Source: a virus. From it: 22,583 nucleotides of DNA. The first letter of the stretch is position 1; every line of letters begins with the position of its first letter. Positions 10,446 through 15,251 of the stretch are shown here, piece by piece. The notes below the pieces were generated by a model that saw only the letters and a list, made by a program, of their open reading frames with translations, was not told where the DNA came from and ran no database searches. The stretch lies in the IMG/VR virus record IMGVR_UViG_3300017725_000082, positions 1-22,583 of that record, one strand, 5' to 3'. The translations under genes were made by a program, and so were the position numbers.

Positions 10446-12634
10446 TGAGCTTTGGTTCGTTTGGAGCGGGCTTCGGTTCATTCGGTGCTGGTGTTGGAGG
10501 GTTGCTACCCGTTATAAATGACAACTTAAAGTCATGGCTTCGTATTCCTACAGCAGATGGCAAAACACTCGCTAACTCTCAGGGTGCAAGTGTTAACCTA
10601 AAAAATACTAACTGTATTAAAACCGACAACAGTTCTAGTCATACTGCCACAATGTCTACTGGACAAATATTTACAACTGGTTCGGTTTTCTCAGCTGATA
10701 TATTAGTTCACGGAAGTACAGGTGGAAGTAATCGTCACGCTTTATTAGGTAGTTCGAGTGTAAATGGTTGTTTTGTTATTCTTGGAAATGTTCCTAAATT
10801 CCGAACCAATGGACTAGTAAACGATTTAACATTTTCTACTTTAACAGTTTCTGACAATGTAAATTATAATATTAAATATGAACGGACATCCGCAGATACT
10901 TTAGTTTGCACATTAACAAACTTAGATACGGGTGCTGTTGCTTCAGAGACAGGAACTTTAACAACCCTAGCTCAAAATAGTTATATGAATAGTGTAACAC
11001 TTAACAGAATAGGAACTTCGGGATCTGTTTATAGTAAGATTAAATTTACTAATGTTGTTTATAATAACTGGAAATATCCATTGCAAGAAGGCTCTGGCAC
11101 AAGGTGTTTTGATATAGGAGGCGAAGGCAACCACATTACATTAGGTGCAGATATTTGGGATACAGAAAACTCAAGAGCTTCGCATAATCACGAGTATGGA
11201 TTTAGTGGTAATGCTGTATTTGATGGTATAGATGATTACATTGAAACTGGTGTAGTAGCAAACGATAACTATACGTTAGAATTTAGAGCTAAACTTGAAA
11301 ATGATAACGCTTATATGGGGTCGTTTAATTTAGTAGATAGATTTTTTATAGGAAGAAATACATCTAGCGTACTTCGCCTTGGTTATAAAAGTTTTAATAA
11401 TACTGCATCTGTAAGTTCTAGTATTTATTCAAAACTTACGACCTATAAAATACAAGGTGGTAAAGGGTTTGTTGATGGCGTAGAGGTTATTAATTCTGGG
11501 GTGTCACCTACAGGTGCTACTGTTGGCGAGTTATACGTTGGTGCTAGAAACTTGAATGGCACAGCAGACAGCTTCGTACAAGCAGATTTAGAATACTATA
11601 GAATTTATGACGATAGCGGTGTTCTTGTTAGAGATTTTGTTCCATCTTCAAATGGCTTATACGACAAAGTAAATGGCGTTTATTATTCCAATGATGGTAC
11701 TGGCACTACAACAGTAAAACGAATACCCGCACTCAACACCAAGACTACACAGGTTGCTACCTTTGATGGTACGGCTGACTTAGTTGATTTTGGAACACAC
11801 GCTATACCTGCATCTGATTCTATTGAGGTAGTGTTTACACCACAAGATGAAGCGGATAGCGGTATTGTGTATTCAATGGGTAGACCTTCAGGCGGGTCGG
11901 GATTTGGAATAAAGTGGGATGGTACAAACGACAGAATTTCATTTAGAACTGCCGATGTTCCTAGAAATAATATTTTAAATTTAGTAACATCTACTAACAG
12001 TTGTGTTGCGGATGGAACTACATACAAAGTAACTTATGATTATGATTCATCAGCAGGTACAGCTACACTTGTTCTTTTTAATGCTGATACAGGAGCTACT
12101 ATTGAAACCGAGTCAGCGACAGGCGTTGCTACAGCCGCATTTGATGTAGGCTCAAGTAGACCACTAAAAATTGGTGCAGACCAGTTTAACCTTGATGATT
12201 ATTTAGGTACTATTCATTCCGTTAAATCTTCTTTTATTGATGTAGATTTTCAAGCTAATATCGGAGCTACAACAGTAATAGACAACTCAGGAAACGGCAA
12301 CAACGGCACAGTTACAGTAGGCTCTGGTGGTACAGCAACATTCTGGGGTACTCGTGTAGCAGACACAGCAGGTTCGCTTGTGAGTGCAGACTACGCCACA
12401 GGTAACACAACTATTAGCAACCCCGCAGGGTTCGTTCATAACGGCTCTGAGTGCGGGTTTGAAACTGGATTACAAGAGCTTACTTCTACTCAAATATTTG
12501 CTATCGATAATAATGATTCAGGTTCTCAACAATTATTCATTCGTAAAGACAATGGAAATGTTACTCAGTTTCTTGAGTATGAAGCTAATTTAACAGGAAC
12601 AGATTTAACAAGGACTAGAGCTTATGTCGGATAA
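10445..12634 (+). CDS. Adhesin with tandem LamG/concanavalin A-like domains
   Basis: A 729-residue beta-rich protein. The N-terminus carries two copies of FGSFGAG (residues 3-9 and 10-16), a flexible Gly/Phe tag. Three related segments follow: ~60-215, ~259-410 (starting FDGIDDYIETG) and ~439-605 (starting FDGTADLVDFGTHAIPASDS). Segments 1 and 3 share the order YNIKYE / YKVTYD strand, then a DTGA turn, then an IGxxG or IGADQ strand near the end. GLYDKVNGVYY and DNSGNGNNGT are linkers I associate with phage LamG proteins. Such domains bind glycans or surface proteins, so a tail-tip or accessory adhesin role is likely. Base composition becomes clearly more GC-rich after about 12.28 kb, within the last ~120 codons. 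Confidence 0.7.
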   Translation: MSFGSFGAGFGSFGAGVGGLLPVINDNLKSWLRIPTADGKTLANSQGASVNLKNTNCIKTDNSSSHTATMSTGQIFTTGSVFSADILVHGSTGGSNRHALLGSSSVNGCFVILGNVPKFRTNGLVNDLTFSTLTVSDNVNYNIKYERTSADTLVCTLTNLDTGAVASETGTLTTLAQNSYMNSVTLNRIGTSGSVYSKIKFTNVVYNNWKYPLQEGSGTRCFDIGGEGNHITLGADIWDTENSRASHNHEYGFSGNAVFDGIDDYIETGVVANDNYTLEFRAKLENDNAYMGSFNLVDRFFIGRNTSSVLRLGYKSFNNTASVSSSIYSKLTTYKIQGGKGFVDGVEVINSGVSPTGATVGELYVGARNLNGTADSFVQADLEYYRIYDDSGVLVRDFVPSSNGLYDKVNGVYYSNDGTGTTTVKRIPALNTKTTQVATFDGTADLVDFGTHAIPASDSIEVVFTPQDEADSGIVYSMGRPSGGSGFGIKWDGTNDRISFRTADVPRNNILNLVTSTNSCVADGTTYKVTYDYDSSAGTATLVLFNADTGATIETESATGVATAAFDVGSSRPLKIGADQFNLDDYLGTIHSVKSSFIDVDFQANIGATTVIDNSGNGNNGTVTVGSGGTATFWGTRVADTAGSLVSADYATGNTTISNPAGFVHNGSECGFETGLQELTSTQIFAIDNNDSGSQQLFIRKDNGNVTQFLEYEANLTGTDLTRTRAYVG

Positions 12635-13043
12635 TTTAACAGACCTTGAACCACATAAGTACGATAAGTTTCTACACACTAATGGAGTAGCTTATGCGTT
12701 CTTGGAAGTACCTGTAGCGTTCCTTGATCAGCAAATGCCCGACTATGCTAACTGGGCTGTAGCCGAGGAAGATGAGGAAGGCAACCCAACCGAGTACAAG
12801 ACACTAGGCGAGTACACGATAGGTCAGGTTCTATCAATAGACGGCACTACAGTTGTTATCACACTAGCGGCAATGCAAGCGGCAACCTACCGCACACCCG
12901 CTATAACCTACGATGATATGCAGGATTGGGAAGACTGGCTCGGATTACACGGATATACTATTGATGACTGGTTAACCATAGAGGAACGGAATTCTTTGTT
13001 AGCTACTGAGGCTTATGGATTAGGGAATATTGGAGATGAATGA
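12624..13043 (+). CDS. Hypothetical acidic protein after the adhesin
   Basis: A 139-residue, strongly acidic, Trp-rich protein (ANWAVAEEDEEGNPTEY; DDMQDWEDWLGLHGYTIDDW). No signal peptide, membrane span or recognised motif. It overlaps the end of the adhesin by 11 bases and its own end overlaps the holin candidate. GC content is near 48% in the sampled line, against about 30% in the middle of the adhesin. Genes placed just after fibres are often fibre-assembly chaperones, and small acidic proteins fit this, but that is an inference from position only. Confidence 0.65.
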   Translation: MSDNLTDLEPHKYDKFLHTNGVAYAFLEVPVAFLDQQMPDYANWAVAEEDEEGNPTEYKTLGEYTIGQVLSIDGTTVVITLAAMQAATYRTPAITYDDMQDWEDWLGLHGYTIDDWLTIEERNSLLATEAYGLGNIGDE

Positions 13044-13188
13044 TATTATTGAAAAGGGATGTGTGGGTTCGGTTGGATTCATCTCAAGCGTTGGCTTGGT
13101 TAACGTCAACCAAGTGTTGTCTGCGATTGTGGCGATTCTTACTATTATTTACTTGGTTATTAGTATTTCCAAAAAACTCGGAGAGTAA
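13036..13188 (+). CDS. Holin candidate (50 aa, one strong membrane span)
   Basis: An ORF starting at the ATG at 13036 encodes MNDIIEKGCVGSVGF then a hydrophobic stretch at residues ~25-45 (VLSAIVAILTIIYLVISI) and a basic-acidic tail KKLGE. A weaker hydrophobic segment lies at ~9-23. Size, single strong span, charged tail and position immediately before the lysozyme fit a small phage holin, which would form membrane lesions to release the endolysin. Its end GGAGAG-TAA supplies the Shine-Dalgarno site of the lysozyme GTG at 13190. Its own ribosome site is less clear: AGGGA lies 9 bases upstream while GGAG directly abuts the ATG. It overlaps the previous gene by 8 bases. Confidence 0.65.
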   Translation: MNDIIEKGCVGSVGFISSVGLVNVNQVLSAIVAILTIIYLVISISKKLGE

Positions 13189-13189
13189 A

Positions 13190-13726
13190 GTGTACCAAAA
13201 AGAAGAAGTTACATCTATGCTAAAAGCCAATGAAGGCTCTAAGTATAACGATAGTGGACAAATGATTTCCTATGTTGATAGTCGTGGGTATTTAACCGCT
13301 GGCTACGGGCATAAAATATTAGATGGCGATCTCGATTTTAATGGAGACCCAATAACCAAGAAGGGTCAGGTTATTTCTACTAAACAGGCTGATGATTGGT
13401 TTGACTCTGATTCAAGTTTCGCTATGGAATTTGCTGAGTCTATACCTATGTTTGATAAGATGAGCAAGGCTAGACAAGAGGTTATGATTGATCTTACTTT
13501 CAATATGGGTAGAGGCTGGGTAAAAGAGTTTACTAATTTGTATATGCTGGCTACTAATGCTCCTAAGTATAGCGACTCTAGACAACATGATAACTTATGG
13601 AAAGCTGCGGCTGGTGAGTTAAGATACAAAGACCCCCGTTCTATTAATATGATCAACAGTGATTACTGGGGACAGGTTGGCAATCGTGCCGTGAGAAACT
13701 ATAACAAGCTGTTAAAGGGAGGTTAA
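13190..13726 (+). CDS. Endolysin, T4-type lysozyme (GH24)
   Basis: A 178-residue muramidase that cuts the glycan strands of peptidoglycan. With the GTG start, the catalytic triad is E15 (MLKANEG), D30 and T36 (YVDSRGYLTAGYGH), the Glu-Asp-Thr set of T4-type lysozymes; RQEVMIDLTFNMG at about 100-112 is the second conserved family region. The GTG is preferred over an in-frame ATG at 13040 because GGAGAG sits just before it and the 50 upstream codons are better explained by the holin frame. E and D are 15 residues apart, against 9 in T4 lysozyme, owing to a short insertion. No cleavable signal is visible with this start, so export depends on the holin. An alternative is that the upstream hydrophobic codons form a signal anchor. 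Confidence 0.85.
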   Translation: MYQKEEVTSMLKANEGSKYNDSGQMISYVDSRGYLTAGYGHKILDGDLDFNGDPITKKGQVISTKQADDWFDSDSSFAMEFAESIPMFDKMSKARQEVMIDLTFNMGRGWVKEFTNLYMLATNAPKYSDSRQHDNLWKAAAGELRYKDPRSINMINSDYWGQVGNRAVRNYNKLLKGG

Positions 13727-13727
13727 T

Positions 13728-13910
13728 ATGGCTAAGAAATACACATCCAAAGTTAATCAAGCTGGCAACTACACTAAGCCTACAATGCGTAAGCGTTTGT
13801 TTAATCAGATCAAAGCGGGAAGTAAAGGCGGTAGCTCAGGGCAGTGGTCTGCTCGCAAGGCACAAATGTTAGCTCGTATGTATAAGGCTAAAGGAGGAGG
13901 GTATCGATGA
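13728..13910 (+). CDS. Small basic protein, DUF5872-like N-terminal segment
   Basis: A 60-residue, strongly basic protein. It holds the stretch GSKGGSSGQWSARKAQMLAR and ends KAKGGGYR, which I recall as a conserved phage motif (QWSARKAQLLA...KGGGY) of the DUF5872 group. AAGGGAGG at the lysozyme end is its Shine-Dalgarno, and its own stop overlaps the next ATG (ATGA). Function unknown; high Lys/Arg suggests nucleic-acid binding or a packaged DNA-associated peptide, as an inference. Confidence 0.7.
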   Translation: MAKKYTSKVNQAGNYTKPTMRKRLFNQIKAGSKGGSSGQWSARKAQMLARMYKAKGGGYR

Positions 13911-14140
13911 AGCCATCACAGAAATCACTGAAGAAGTGGACAAAGCAAAAGTGGCGTACTAAATCTGGCAAGAAGTCTAGCGAGACTGGTGAGCGTTACC
14001 TACCCGAAGCTGCGATCAAAGCTCTTAGTTCTGCAGAGTATGCGGCAACAACCAAAGCCAAACGTGAGGGAAAGAAGAAGGGTAAACAGTTTGTTAAGCA
14101 ACCAAAATATATAGCCAAGAAAACATCGAGGTACAGATGA
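13907..14140 (+). CDS. Small basic protein, DUF5872-like C-terminal segment
   Basis: A 77-residue, very basic protein: SLKKWTKQKWRTKSGKKSS, GERYLPEAAIKALSSAEYAA, then a Lys-rich tail ending KKTSRYR. I recall this W(R/G)TKSGK...GERYLP...EYAATT pattern in phage proteins where it follows the QWSARKAQ motif within one polypeptide. Here the two parts are separate genes overlapping by four bases. Function unknown. Coupled translation with both neighbours suggests equal amounts of each product. Confidence 0.7.
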   Translation: MKPSQKSLKKWTKQKWRTKSGKKSSETGERYLPEAAIKALSSAEYAATTKAKREGKKKGKQFVKQPKYIAKKTSRYR

Positions 14141-14418
14141 GCCAGTCACTATTAAAGCGTATAGGTGTTAGTGGTTACAACAAACCAAAGCGTACATCTG
14201 GTCATCCCAAGAAGTCTCACGTTGTTGTAGCTAAGTCAGGTGGTAAGGTAAAGACAATTCGATTTGGAGAACAGGGAGCTTCTACAGCAGGTAAACCTAA
14301 AGCGGGTGAGTCAAAGCGTATGAAGATGAAACGTAAATCATTCAAGGCTCGGCATCGTAAGAACATTGCAAAGGGTGTAATGTCTGCTGCATACTGGGCA
14401 AACAAAGTAAAGTGGTAA
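14137..14418 (+). CDS. Small basic protein, DUF6321-like
   Basis: A 93-residue basic protein with the order GYNKPKRTSGHPKKSHVVVA, KVKTIRFGEQGASTAGK, then KRKSFKARHRKNIAKG and SAAYWANKVKW at the C-terminus. This is a well-conserved phage family, remembered as DUF6321, of unknown function. It overlaps the preceding stop by four bases. The IRFGEQG and SFKARH motifs are intact, so the gene appears functional. A role in nucleic-acid binding or late assembly is inferred only from charge and location. Confidence 0.75.
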   Translation: MSQSLLKRIGVSGYNKPKRTSGHPKKSHVVVAKSGGKVKTIRFGEQGASTAGKPKAGESKRMKMKRKSFKARHRKNIAKGVMSAAYWANKVKW

Positions 14419-14428
14419 GGAGATAGTT

Positions 14429-14566
14429 ATGCCAAAGGTGGGAAACAAACACTTCAAGTACACTAAAAAAGGAATGGCTCAGGCTAAAGCGTATGCTAAG
14501 TCTAGTGGTCAGGATGTTAGTTACGGCAAGAAGAAAAAGAAGATGACTAAACGCAAGAGTTATTAA
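14429..14566 (+). CDS. Small basic protein, 45 aa
   Basis: ATG at 14429 follows AAGGAG with a 6-base spacing. The 45-residue product begins MPKVGNKHFKYTKKGMAQAK, has YAKSSGQDVSYGK, and ends in a Lys-rich tail (KKKKKMTKRKSY). The stop overlaps the next ATG (TAATG). It is the fourth highly basic mini-protein in a row. The HFxYTKKGMAxAKAYAK pattern looks like a small phage family I have seen but cannot name. Confidence 0.7.
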   Translation: MPKVGNKHFKYTKKGMAQAKAYAKSSGQDVSYGKKKKKMTKRKSY

Positions 14567-14829
14567 TGCCAAAGATAGAAGAGAACACAGATATAACTAT
14601 TCCCCTAAGGAATCTTCTATCAATTATTGGCGGGGTTGCTATCGCAGTCGTTGGTTACTTTCATGTGGATGAGCGTATAATGCTACTGGAGCATGAGCAA
14701 GTAAGGATGATAGACGATATAAAAGCTAGTGAAAAATGGATTGATGAGTGGGAGTCTGGAGGTATGCTCCCATTGGATGCTGAACAAAATATTAGATTAG
14801 ATGTAATTGAACGGGAGTTGTATAAATGA
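14566..14829 (+). CDS. Membrane-anchored small protein with coiled coil
   Basis: An 87-residue protein with one N-terminal membrane span (residues ~14-32, LRNLLSIIGGVAIAVVGYF) followed by a charged helical segment (DERIMLLEHEQVRMIDDIKA) and an acidic tail. This inner-membrane anchor plus helical rod plan is seen in inner-membrane spanin subunits and also in other phage lysis-region proteins, so a lysis role is possible. No outer-membrane lipoprotein partner is visible next to it. Coupled to the next gene by ATGA overlap. Confidence 0.65.
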   Translation: MPKIEENTDITIPLRNLLSIIGGVAIAVVGYFHVDERIMLLEHEQVRMIDDIKASEKWIDEWESGGMLPLDAEQNIRLDVIERELYK

Positions 14830-15251
14830 GTATGGAGTTAATCGCAATGCTAGGTGGTTCGCTATCTGGATTTGTAATGAAGTTAATAGCTGCACAAACA
14901 CAGTCGCAAGCAGCTCAACTAGAGTCTATGCTTAAGAAGCAGGGAGTAGCTGATGACTCGGCTGATCGTGCGGCTAAACGAGATGGGGTAGCAGGACAAG
15001 TCGTCCGCAGAACTATTGCGTTGTGTACACTCTTCGCTGTTATATTTGCTCCGTTTATTCTTGCGTTCTTTAACGAGCCTGTTACTATTGAAGCCAATCC
15101 TACGGGCGGTATATTCGGATTTATTTTTGGTAATTTATTCTCCAAGGGAAATGGTTGGGTTGAACTGCAGGGTTATGTGTTACTGCCTGAAGTTCGTCAG
15201 ACTATGTTAGCACTTGTCGGGTTTTACTTCGGCAGCTCTCAAGTAAAATAA
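14826..15251 (+). CDS. Multi-span membrane protein, unknown function
   Basis: A 141-residue protein with hydrophobic segments at ~5-22, a strong span at ~62-83 (IALCTLFAVIFAPFILAFF), a Gly/Phe-rich stretch at ~94-106 and a final one at ~118-137 (VRQTMLALVGFYFG). A hydrophilic Gln/Lys/Asp loop lies between the first two. The RR-x20-APFILA plus VRQTxLAxVGFYFG pattern is one I recall from other phage membrane proteins of unknown role. Being co-translated with the 87-residue membrane protein and near holin and lysozyme genes, it may assist lysis. Confidence 0.65.
   Translation: MSMELIAMLGGSLSGFVMKLIAAQTQSQAAQLESMLKKQGVADDSADRAAKRDGVAGQVVRRTIALCTLFAVIFAPFILAFFNEPVTIEANPTGGIFGFIFGNLFSKGNGWVELQGYVLLPEVRQTMLALVGFYFGSSQVK

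Follow-up and report, generated by a model that had tools for sequence, protein, structure and literature searches.

A marine phage gene for a likely holin may encode, in its +1 frame, an export leader of the neighbouring lysozyme

In the phiKMV-like cassettes of SAR lysozyme and pinholin (JG068 gp47/gp42 and the KP34 group), the lysozyme begins with a charged and hydrophobic leader and the genome encodes a small membrane protein with a basic tail. The leader is described as needed for lysis in JG068 (PMC3765740), where gp47 alone is reported to bring about lysis or a fall in optical density, and the holin of SAR or signal-peptide lysozyme cassettes as one that opens the membrane or dissipates its potential (PMC4411677, PMC3765740). 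Two lysis proteins encoded on shared DNA in different frames are known from the nested Rz/Rz1 spanin genes (T7p55/T7p56 in T7, 48/49 in JG068). The class II holin of T7, gp17.5 (PF10746, phrog_920), is a small protein with a basic C-terminal tail that forms a two-span hairpin. Here we describe a phage locus that resembles these systems in part. In its long frame the lysozyme would carry a leader with a charged region and a hydrophobic helix, as in the JG068 and KP34 cassettes, but in those cassettes, as they are described in the sources cited, the leader is part of the lysozyme gene alone and the JG068 holin gene lies elsewhere, whereas the candidate leader found here lies inside the holin-like gene, in another frame. 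Two proteins would share DNA as in Rz/Rz1, but the pair consists of a candidate holin and an endolysin leader.

The sequence analysed (hereafter the window) comprises positions 1 to 22,583 of IMG/VR virus record IMGVR_UViG_3300017725_000082, from a marine phage, and its relevant features are collected in Table 1. A previous sequence-only reading had observed that the longest lysozyme frame opens at ATG 13040, that the same stretch hides a 50-aa frame opened by ATG 13036 (MNDIIEKGCVGSVGFISSVGLVNVNQVLSAIVAILTIIYLVISISKKLGE), and that the last codons of the latter hold the Shine-Dalgarno of a GTG start at 13190; it took the hidden frame for a holin and re-assigned the lysozyme start to the GTG. 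All elements of this layout were confirmed in the sequence. The two ATGs, noted then as lying four bases apart, share one initiation region, into which the stop of the upstream gene also falls, overlapping both. The 50-aa stop and the short lysozyme start are arranged as TAA-A-GTG. Of these three starts in the window, GTG 13190 has the best Shine-Dalgarno, by a slight margin (anti-Shine-Dalgarno duplex energies of -7.0 kcal/mol, vs -6.4 at ATG 13040 and -5.8 at ATG 13036).

Table 1. Features of the lysis region of the window (positions in nt)
Feature	Position	Strand	Remarks
Upstream gene, 139 aa, tail-region protein	12624..13043	+	phrog_203 baseplate wedge match, at E 0.047 only
AGGG, possible Shine-Dalgarno of the 50-aa gene	13022..13025	+	10 nt 5' of ATG 13036
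GGAG abutting ATG 13036	13032..13035	+	4 nt 5' of ATG 13040; present also in L003/L004
50-aa holin-like membrane protein	13036..13188	+	ATG 13036-13038, stop TAA 13186-13188
Long lysozyme frame, 228 aa	13040..13726	+	ATG 13040; frame +1 relative to the 50-aa gene; leader 13040-13189, then GH24 domain
Predicted hydrophobic helix of the leader	13109..13162	+	residues 24-41 of the long form; AlphaFold2
GGAG in the final codons of the 50-aa gene	13180..13183	+	6 nt 5' of GTG 13190; duplex energy -7.0 kcal/mol
Short lysozyme, 178 aa, T4-lysozyme-like GH24 domain	13190..13726	+	GTG 13190, in frame with ATG 13040
87-aa protein, one N-terminal span	14566..14829	+	phrog_20984; possible spanin
141-aa membrane protein	14826..15251	+	phrog_38283; alternative or second holin candidate

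The lysozyme belongs to the GH24 phage lysozymes (PF00959, E 1.2e-8, scoring 35.8 bits where the curated cut-off is 22.3), and T4 lysozyme is its top match both by sequence and by fold; fold and family are shared with T4 lysozyme, but identity is 22-25% and the leader is an addition at the N-terminus. Residues E15, D30 and T36, which we take from the roles of their counterparts in T4 lysozyme to be the catalytic E..D..T residues, are invariant in the lysozyme alignment (A2). Searching viral contigs with the lysozyme as query returned 20 loci. Two relatives, L006 and L007, encode lysozymes (46% identical) that have no leader and no 50-aa gene seen upstream, their frame being closed 7-8 codons upstream of the match, and they begin at the same place as the short form. 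This comparison of N-termini with relatives, suggested by the sequence-only reading, shows that the lysozyme domain is complete without the extension.

In the same scan data, a 50-aa ORF precedes the lysozyme in five viral loci (L001 to L005), and it is identical to that of the window in L001 and L002. Between the window and L005, 43 of the 153 bases of the ORF differ, 30 of them at its third codon positions, and only 7 amino acid differences result in the 50-aa frame. Random placement of the same substitutions gives an expectation of 25.7 +/- 2.3, with none of 5000 trials yielding 7 or fewer; in the lysozyme leader read from those bases, 32 of 50 positions are changed. Because amino acid changes are so few compared with expectation, and because the family occurs in many further loci, the 50-aa frame is a real gene under strong purifying selection, with homologues beyond close strains. 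The same two observations ruled out a chance ORF within a long lysozyme gene. No relative was encountered that conserves the lysozyme extension while breaking the 50-aa frame, the case named in advance as speaking against a hidden gene: the frame is broken in none of the five paired loci.

The 50-aa family is widespread in marine phages, mostly without an adjoining lysozyme. One homologue is gp27 of the Verrucomicrobia phage P8625 (37% over 46 residues), annotated as hypothetical and free-standing, with no lysozyme behind it; the main text of the article describing P8625 (PMC4642752) uses none of the terms holin, lysis, endolysin or lysozyme. Used as a query, gp27 matched 23 viral loci, and further members were found adjoining homologues of the 141-aa gene. 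In a survey of neighbours that skipped eleven duplicate loci (L021-L026, L057-L060, L073), the gene following a family member encoded a lysozyme in some loci and elsewhere a basic protein of 61 aa, a protein with a single span, the membrane protein of 141 aa or the terminase small subunit. Since the downstream neighbour varies in this way, the 50-aa gene is free-standing, abutting the lysozyme here by circumstance. A tblastn search of phages with the 50-aa protein gave one chance match only (E 9), a scan of genome contigs found nothing, and no Pfam model matches the family. A broken copy, whose frame is lost after about 30 codons, occurs at L110:3341-3504.

The +1 frame over the same bases was then considered as a coding sequence in its own right. 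It had been proposed that both frames are hydrophobic because shifted reading of a membrane-span code stays hydrophobic, and this part is correct: hydrophobic NTN codons read one base later become TNN codons (F, L, S, C, W), and the W/C-rich look of the long frame stems from NTG codons read in +1. A hydrophobic leader would thus be nearly free once TAA, TAG and TGA had been purged from the +1 frame. What the proposal leaves unexplained is the absence of stops. In random synonymous recodings of the 50-aa protein that followed the codon usage of the genome, the +1 frame contained 8.6 stops on average and remained open over 49 codons with a probability of 5e-5 to 1e-4. These stops stem chiefly from NTA codons, and the window ORF uses NTA at none of its 22 I/V/L codons (9.4 expected, P 5e-6), with 0 of 22 in L003 and 1 of 22 in L004. 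Other A-ending codons are used normally in the window ORF (8 of 20; 7.3 expected), and every one of 698 sliding runs of 22 I/V/L codons drawn from 14 window genes has at least four NTA. Shuffling the ORF's own codons left the +1 frame open in 5% of trials, a figure that is this high because the avoidance of NTA is already conditioned on.

Family members with no lysozyme behind them served as controls. The +1 frame is open in none of 28 such members, which have 3-13 stops each; the last 30 codons are open by chance in two (L035 and L043). For codon usage, 26 members were compared, L082 (similar to L084) and L053 (similar to L033) being omitted: NTA accounts for 130 of 196 I/V/L codons in ten members with GC contents up to 0.37, and for 2-12 of 17-22 in each of the other 16 (GC 0.42-0.52). 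The dual frame was seen only where the 50-aa gene and the lysozyme meet, relatives of either without the partner lacking it. Because the synonymous choices of the 50-aa gene specifically avoid the codons that would create stops, the long lysozyme frame is, on this codon-level evidence, itself under selection to stay open and not a passive by-product. A codon bias brought in from a GC-rich donor was rejected as a source of the pattern, as T-ending codons are freely used, other A-ending codons occur at genome frequency, and the bias of L005 shifts in mid-gene.

This shift is informative. In L005, NTA is found at 6 of 8 I/V/L codons in the first 22 codons of the 50-aa ORF and at 1 of 13 in the last 28 (Fisher 0.003), and the switch is located at an ATG (position 2914) with AGGA 7 nt upstream, which opens a 29-aa hydrophobic leader (MLMQFCQRLLQYLLLFILVLASGKSWASN) ahead of the lysozyme domain. 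The probability of the last 29 codons being open is 0.0016 under genome usage and 7.5e-4 when the ORF's own codons are shuffled, and the first 20 codons of the leader frame contain stops. Synonymous sites differing from the window amount to 15 of 24 in the open stretch and 11 of 18 in the first part; given this equal divergence, openness has been maintained in L005 through many silent changes. Beyond openness, similarity between leaders at the amino acid level is weak (P 0.044 for L005/L003, P 0.26 for L005/window).

On the other hand, the paired loci do not all count separately. The 50-aa ORF and leader of L003 share 91% nucleotide identity with the window, and its lysozyme shares 92% amino acid identity with that of L005; the segment L003:2673-3357 is a mosaic of a window-type leader and 50-aa ORF with an L005-type lysozyme domain, with a border near the start of the domain. 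We interpret the L003 50-aa ORF as a recent module exchange with the window type, for which reason the five paired loci represent two effectively independent cases. The low synonymous divergence between the window and L003, once regarded as evidence of dual coding, was dropped, since it is contradicted by the lysozyme similarities and explained by recent exchange. No more close pairs of 50-aa gene and lysozyme were found in an additional lysozyme scan. The high nucleotide identity of the window and L003 in this stretch would also suit an explanation in which selection on the +1 frame acts on an RNA feature, or reflects unusual nucleotide usage, rather than translation. We regard this as very improbable, as NTA alone is avoided while other A-ending codons are normal, and as the avoidance in L005 is confined to the part downstream of the internal ATG despite equal synonymous divergence on both sides.

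Selection for an open frame bears on which lysozyme start is used. A conventional arrangement would have a canonical holin followed by a cytoplasmic lysozyme made from GTG 13190 by termination-reinitiation, the long frame being an accident of the shifted membrane code. The good Shine-Dalgarno 6 nt ahead of the GTG, the TAA-N-start spacing retained in the window and L003-L005, the leaderless L006 and L007 lysozymes that begin at the same place, and the stops in the first 20 leader codons of L005 all agree with it. It does not account for the selective avoidance of NTA that has purged lysozyme-frame stops in two independent cases, nor for L003 and L004, in which the short start lacks a useful Shine-Dalgarno and the long start is strongly favoured (-6.4 vs -0.1 kcal/mol), and we consider it rather unlikely. 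Conservation of the Shine-Dalgarno at the GTG was dropped as an argument on account of these two loci; in L005 both lysozyme starts are about equal (-4.0 and -4.2 kcal/mol). Re-assigning the start to 13190 alone is thus probably wrong, at least for L003/L004, because the long frame is selected to remain open and the short start of these loci is almost devoid of a Shine-Dalgarno. The either/or choice of the sequence-only reading is better replaced by both: the hidden holin-like gene was right, and the long lysozyme it discarded is probably right too. ATG 13040 and GTG 13190 may possibly both be used, giving an exported and a cytoplasmic form.

Only the long form has an N-terminal charged region and a hydrophobic helix ahead of the catalytic domain, the combination by which SAR and signal-peptide endolysins are recognised. 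In the AlphaFold2 model of the long form, the helix is followed by a linker of low confidence and then by the lysozyme domain, which is modelled with confidence, and the best 19-residue Kyte-Doolittle mean of the leader is 1.64 (residues 26-44). SAR endolysin anchors are weakly hydrophobic and rich in Gly and Ala. No Gly/Ala-rich anchor of this type is present in the leader, which is rich in L, F and W, and its composition is more that of a usual signal peptide or anchor than that of a SAR anchor; the S-x-A ending of the L003 and L005 leaders resembles a signal-peptidase site. From these properties we infer that the positive n-region and hydrophobic helix would direct or anchor the lysozyme via the Sec pathway, so that the catalytic domain of the long form would face the periplasm. 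The holin would release or activate the exported lysozyme by disturbing the membrane, either through loss of its potential or by opening it. We therefore favour, with somewhat better than even confidence, a lysis module with true dual coding, in which frame 0 would encode a holin-like protein and frame +1 a lysozyme export leader.

Holin function is our best guess for the 50-aa protein, and a likely one, because of its small size, its single strong span with a basic tail, its position next to the endolysin, a homologue in a T7-like slot in an Ayaqvirus, and weak profile matches. The clean span and charged tail seen earlier were borne out: a single strong span covers residues 27-45 (mean Kyte-Doolittle 2.64), followed by a KK..E tail, and the N-terminal segment is G/S-rich and weakly hydrophobic. 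The protein thus fits a small membrane protein with a charged C-terminal tail adjoining an endolysin. AlphaFold2 predicts one long helix and not a hairpin (pLDDT 82, pTM 0.42); the two spans of the T7 class II holin compare here with one strong span and a weak G/S-rich segment. The homologue in Ayaqvirus S45C18 (Autographiviridae) has a hypothetical protein of 355 aa before it and the small terminase after it; in the T7 annotation, the holin is placed between the tail fibre and the small terminase. Against phrog_920, which T7 gp17.5 matches at E 1e-30, the window protein gives a weak match (E 0.0048, residues 27-47 on profile positions 30-50). Among eight other family members, L102, L053 and L096 match at E 0.027-0.17 and L084, L048, L103, L127 and L031 do not match; P8625 gp27 gives E 0.37, and all four members of alignment A1 match, at E values up to 1. 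Comparison of the family with phrog_920 by hhalign gave a probability of 43% over 47 columns (E 2.5e-4 for this single comparison). Neither PF10746 nor any other Pfam holin model matched the 50-aa protein, which is also shorter than gp17.5 (50 vs 67 aa), and the holin evidence does not make it a member of PF10746. Of the earlier assignment, then, the gene has been substantiated and the holin function is probable.

A competing assignment makes the 141-aa protein the holin and the 50-aa protein an antiholin, a pinholin-like partner or another membrane protein, in which case dual coding may still hold. The 141-aa gene lies directly behind the leaderless lysozyme in L006 and L007, where no 50-aa gene was seen upstream, and the 50-aa family is absent from 30 of the 52 loci in which the 141-aa gene is preceded by 2.3 kb or more of sequence. 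However, it is the 50-aa gene that abuts the lysozyme in the window and in L001-L005, and the Ayaqvirus homologue occupies the position that the holin has in T7, while the 7 features shown for that locus include no evident 141-aa gene. In addition, phrog_38283 is a family of unknown function, and the 141-aa protein had no holin match in Pfam. We judge this assignment doubtful, and retain the 50-aa protein as the likely holin.

The leader would be the younger of the two layers, because members of the 50-aa family are common where no lysozyme adjoins them and the L006 and L007 lysozymes are leaderless. Most likely, it arose by overprinting of the older gene, that of the membrane protein, once this gene and the lysozyme had become neighbours: an old membrane-protein gene would have come first, a lysozyme would have been placed behind it, and a leader would then have been overprinted on the membrane code. 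In its fullest form, which we put forward only tentatively, one 150-nt segment would encode a holin in frame 0 and, in +1, the export leader of its own endolysin, arisen de novo by overprinting; nested starts would give exported (ATG 13040) and cytoplasmic (GTG 13190) lysozyme, and the levels of holin and exported lysozyme would be tied at one ribosome-binding region, competition at which would set the timing of lysis. In the literature we met on lysis genes that overlap, are nested or arose by overprinting, and on membrane codes read out of frame, as far as those sources were accessible, there was no described case of an endolysin leader lying out of frame inside a holin gene. If true, it would offer a simple general route to new signal sequences, in which NTN is read as TNN and only a purge of stops is needed, and would serve as a clean natural experiment in how export signals arise de novo. 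Gene callers that retain only the longest or non-overlapping frame would then lose one of the two proteins, and a family whose members in P8625 and other marine phages are labelled hypothetical would gain a likely lysis function.

Between the lysozyme and the 87-aa gene, four small K/R-rich proteins (60, 77, 93 and 45 aa) are encoded in a run (13728-14566), of which the 77-aa protein is conserved in Pelagibacter, Roseobacter, Methylophilales and HMO-2011 phages (17 records). The 87-aa protein is a possible spanin. Its homologue directly follows the 50-aa gene in L084, L099, L082 and L035. In L084 its position resembles that of T7 Rz: on one side is a gene of 82 aa similar to the L100 small terminase, on the other a terminase-like gene. 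Homologues of the 141-aa protein occur in 71 viral loci. In HMO-2011 (L028:5768-6363), an unrelated-looking 37-aa one-span ORF, perhaps an analogous holin, directly precedes the lysozyme (gp57/gp56), whose frame has no upstream extension. Finally, a 179-aa glycine-rich tail-region protein encoded at 631-1167 of the window weakly matches phrog_10341, labelled as endolysin (E 1e-6, residues 3-88).
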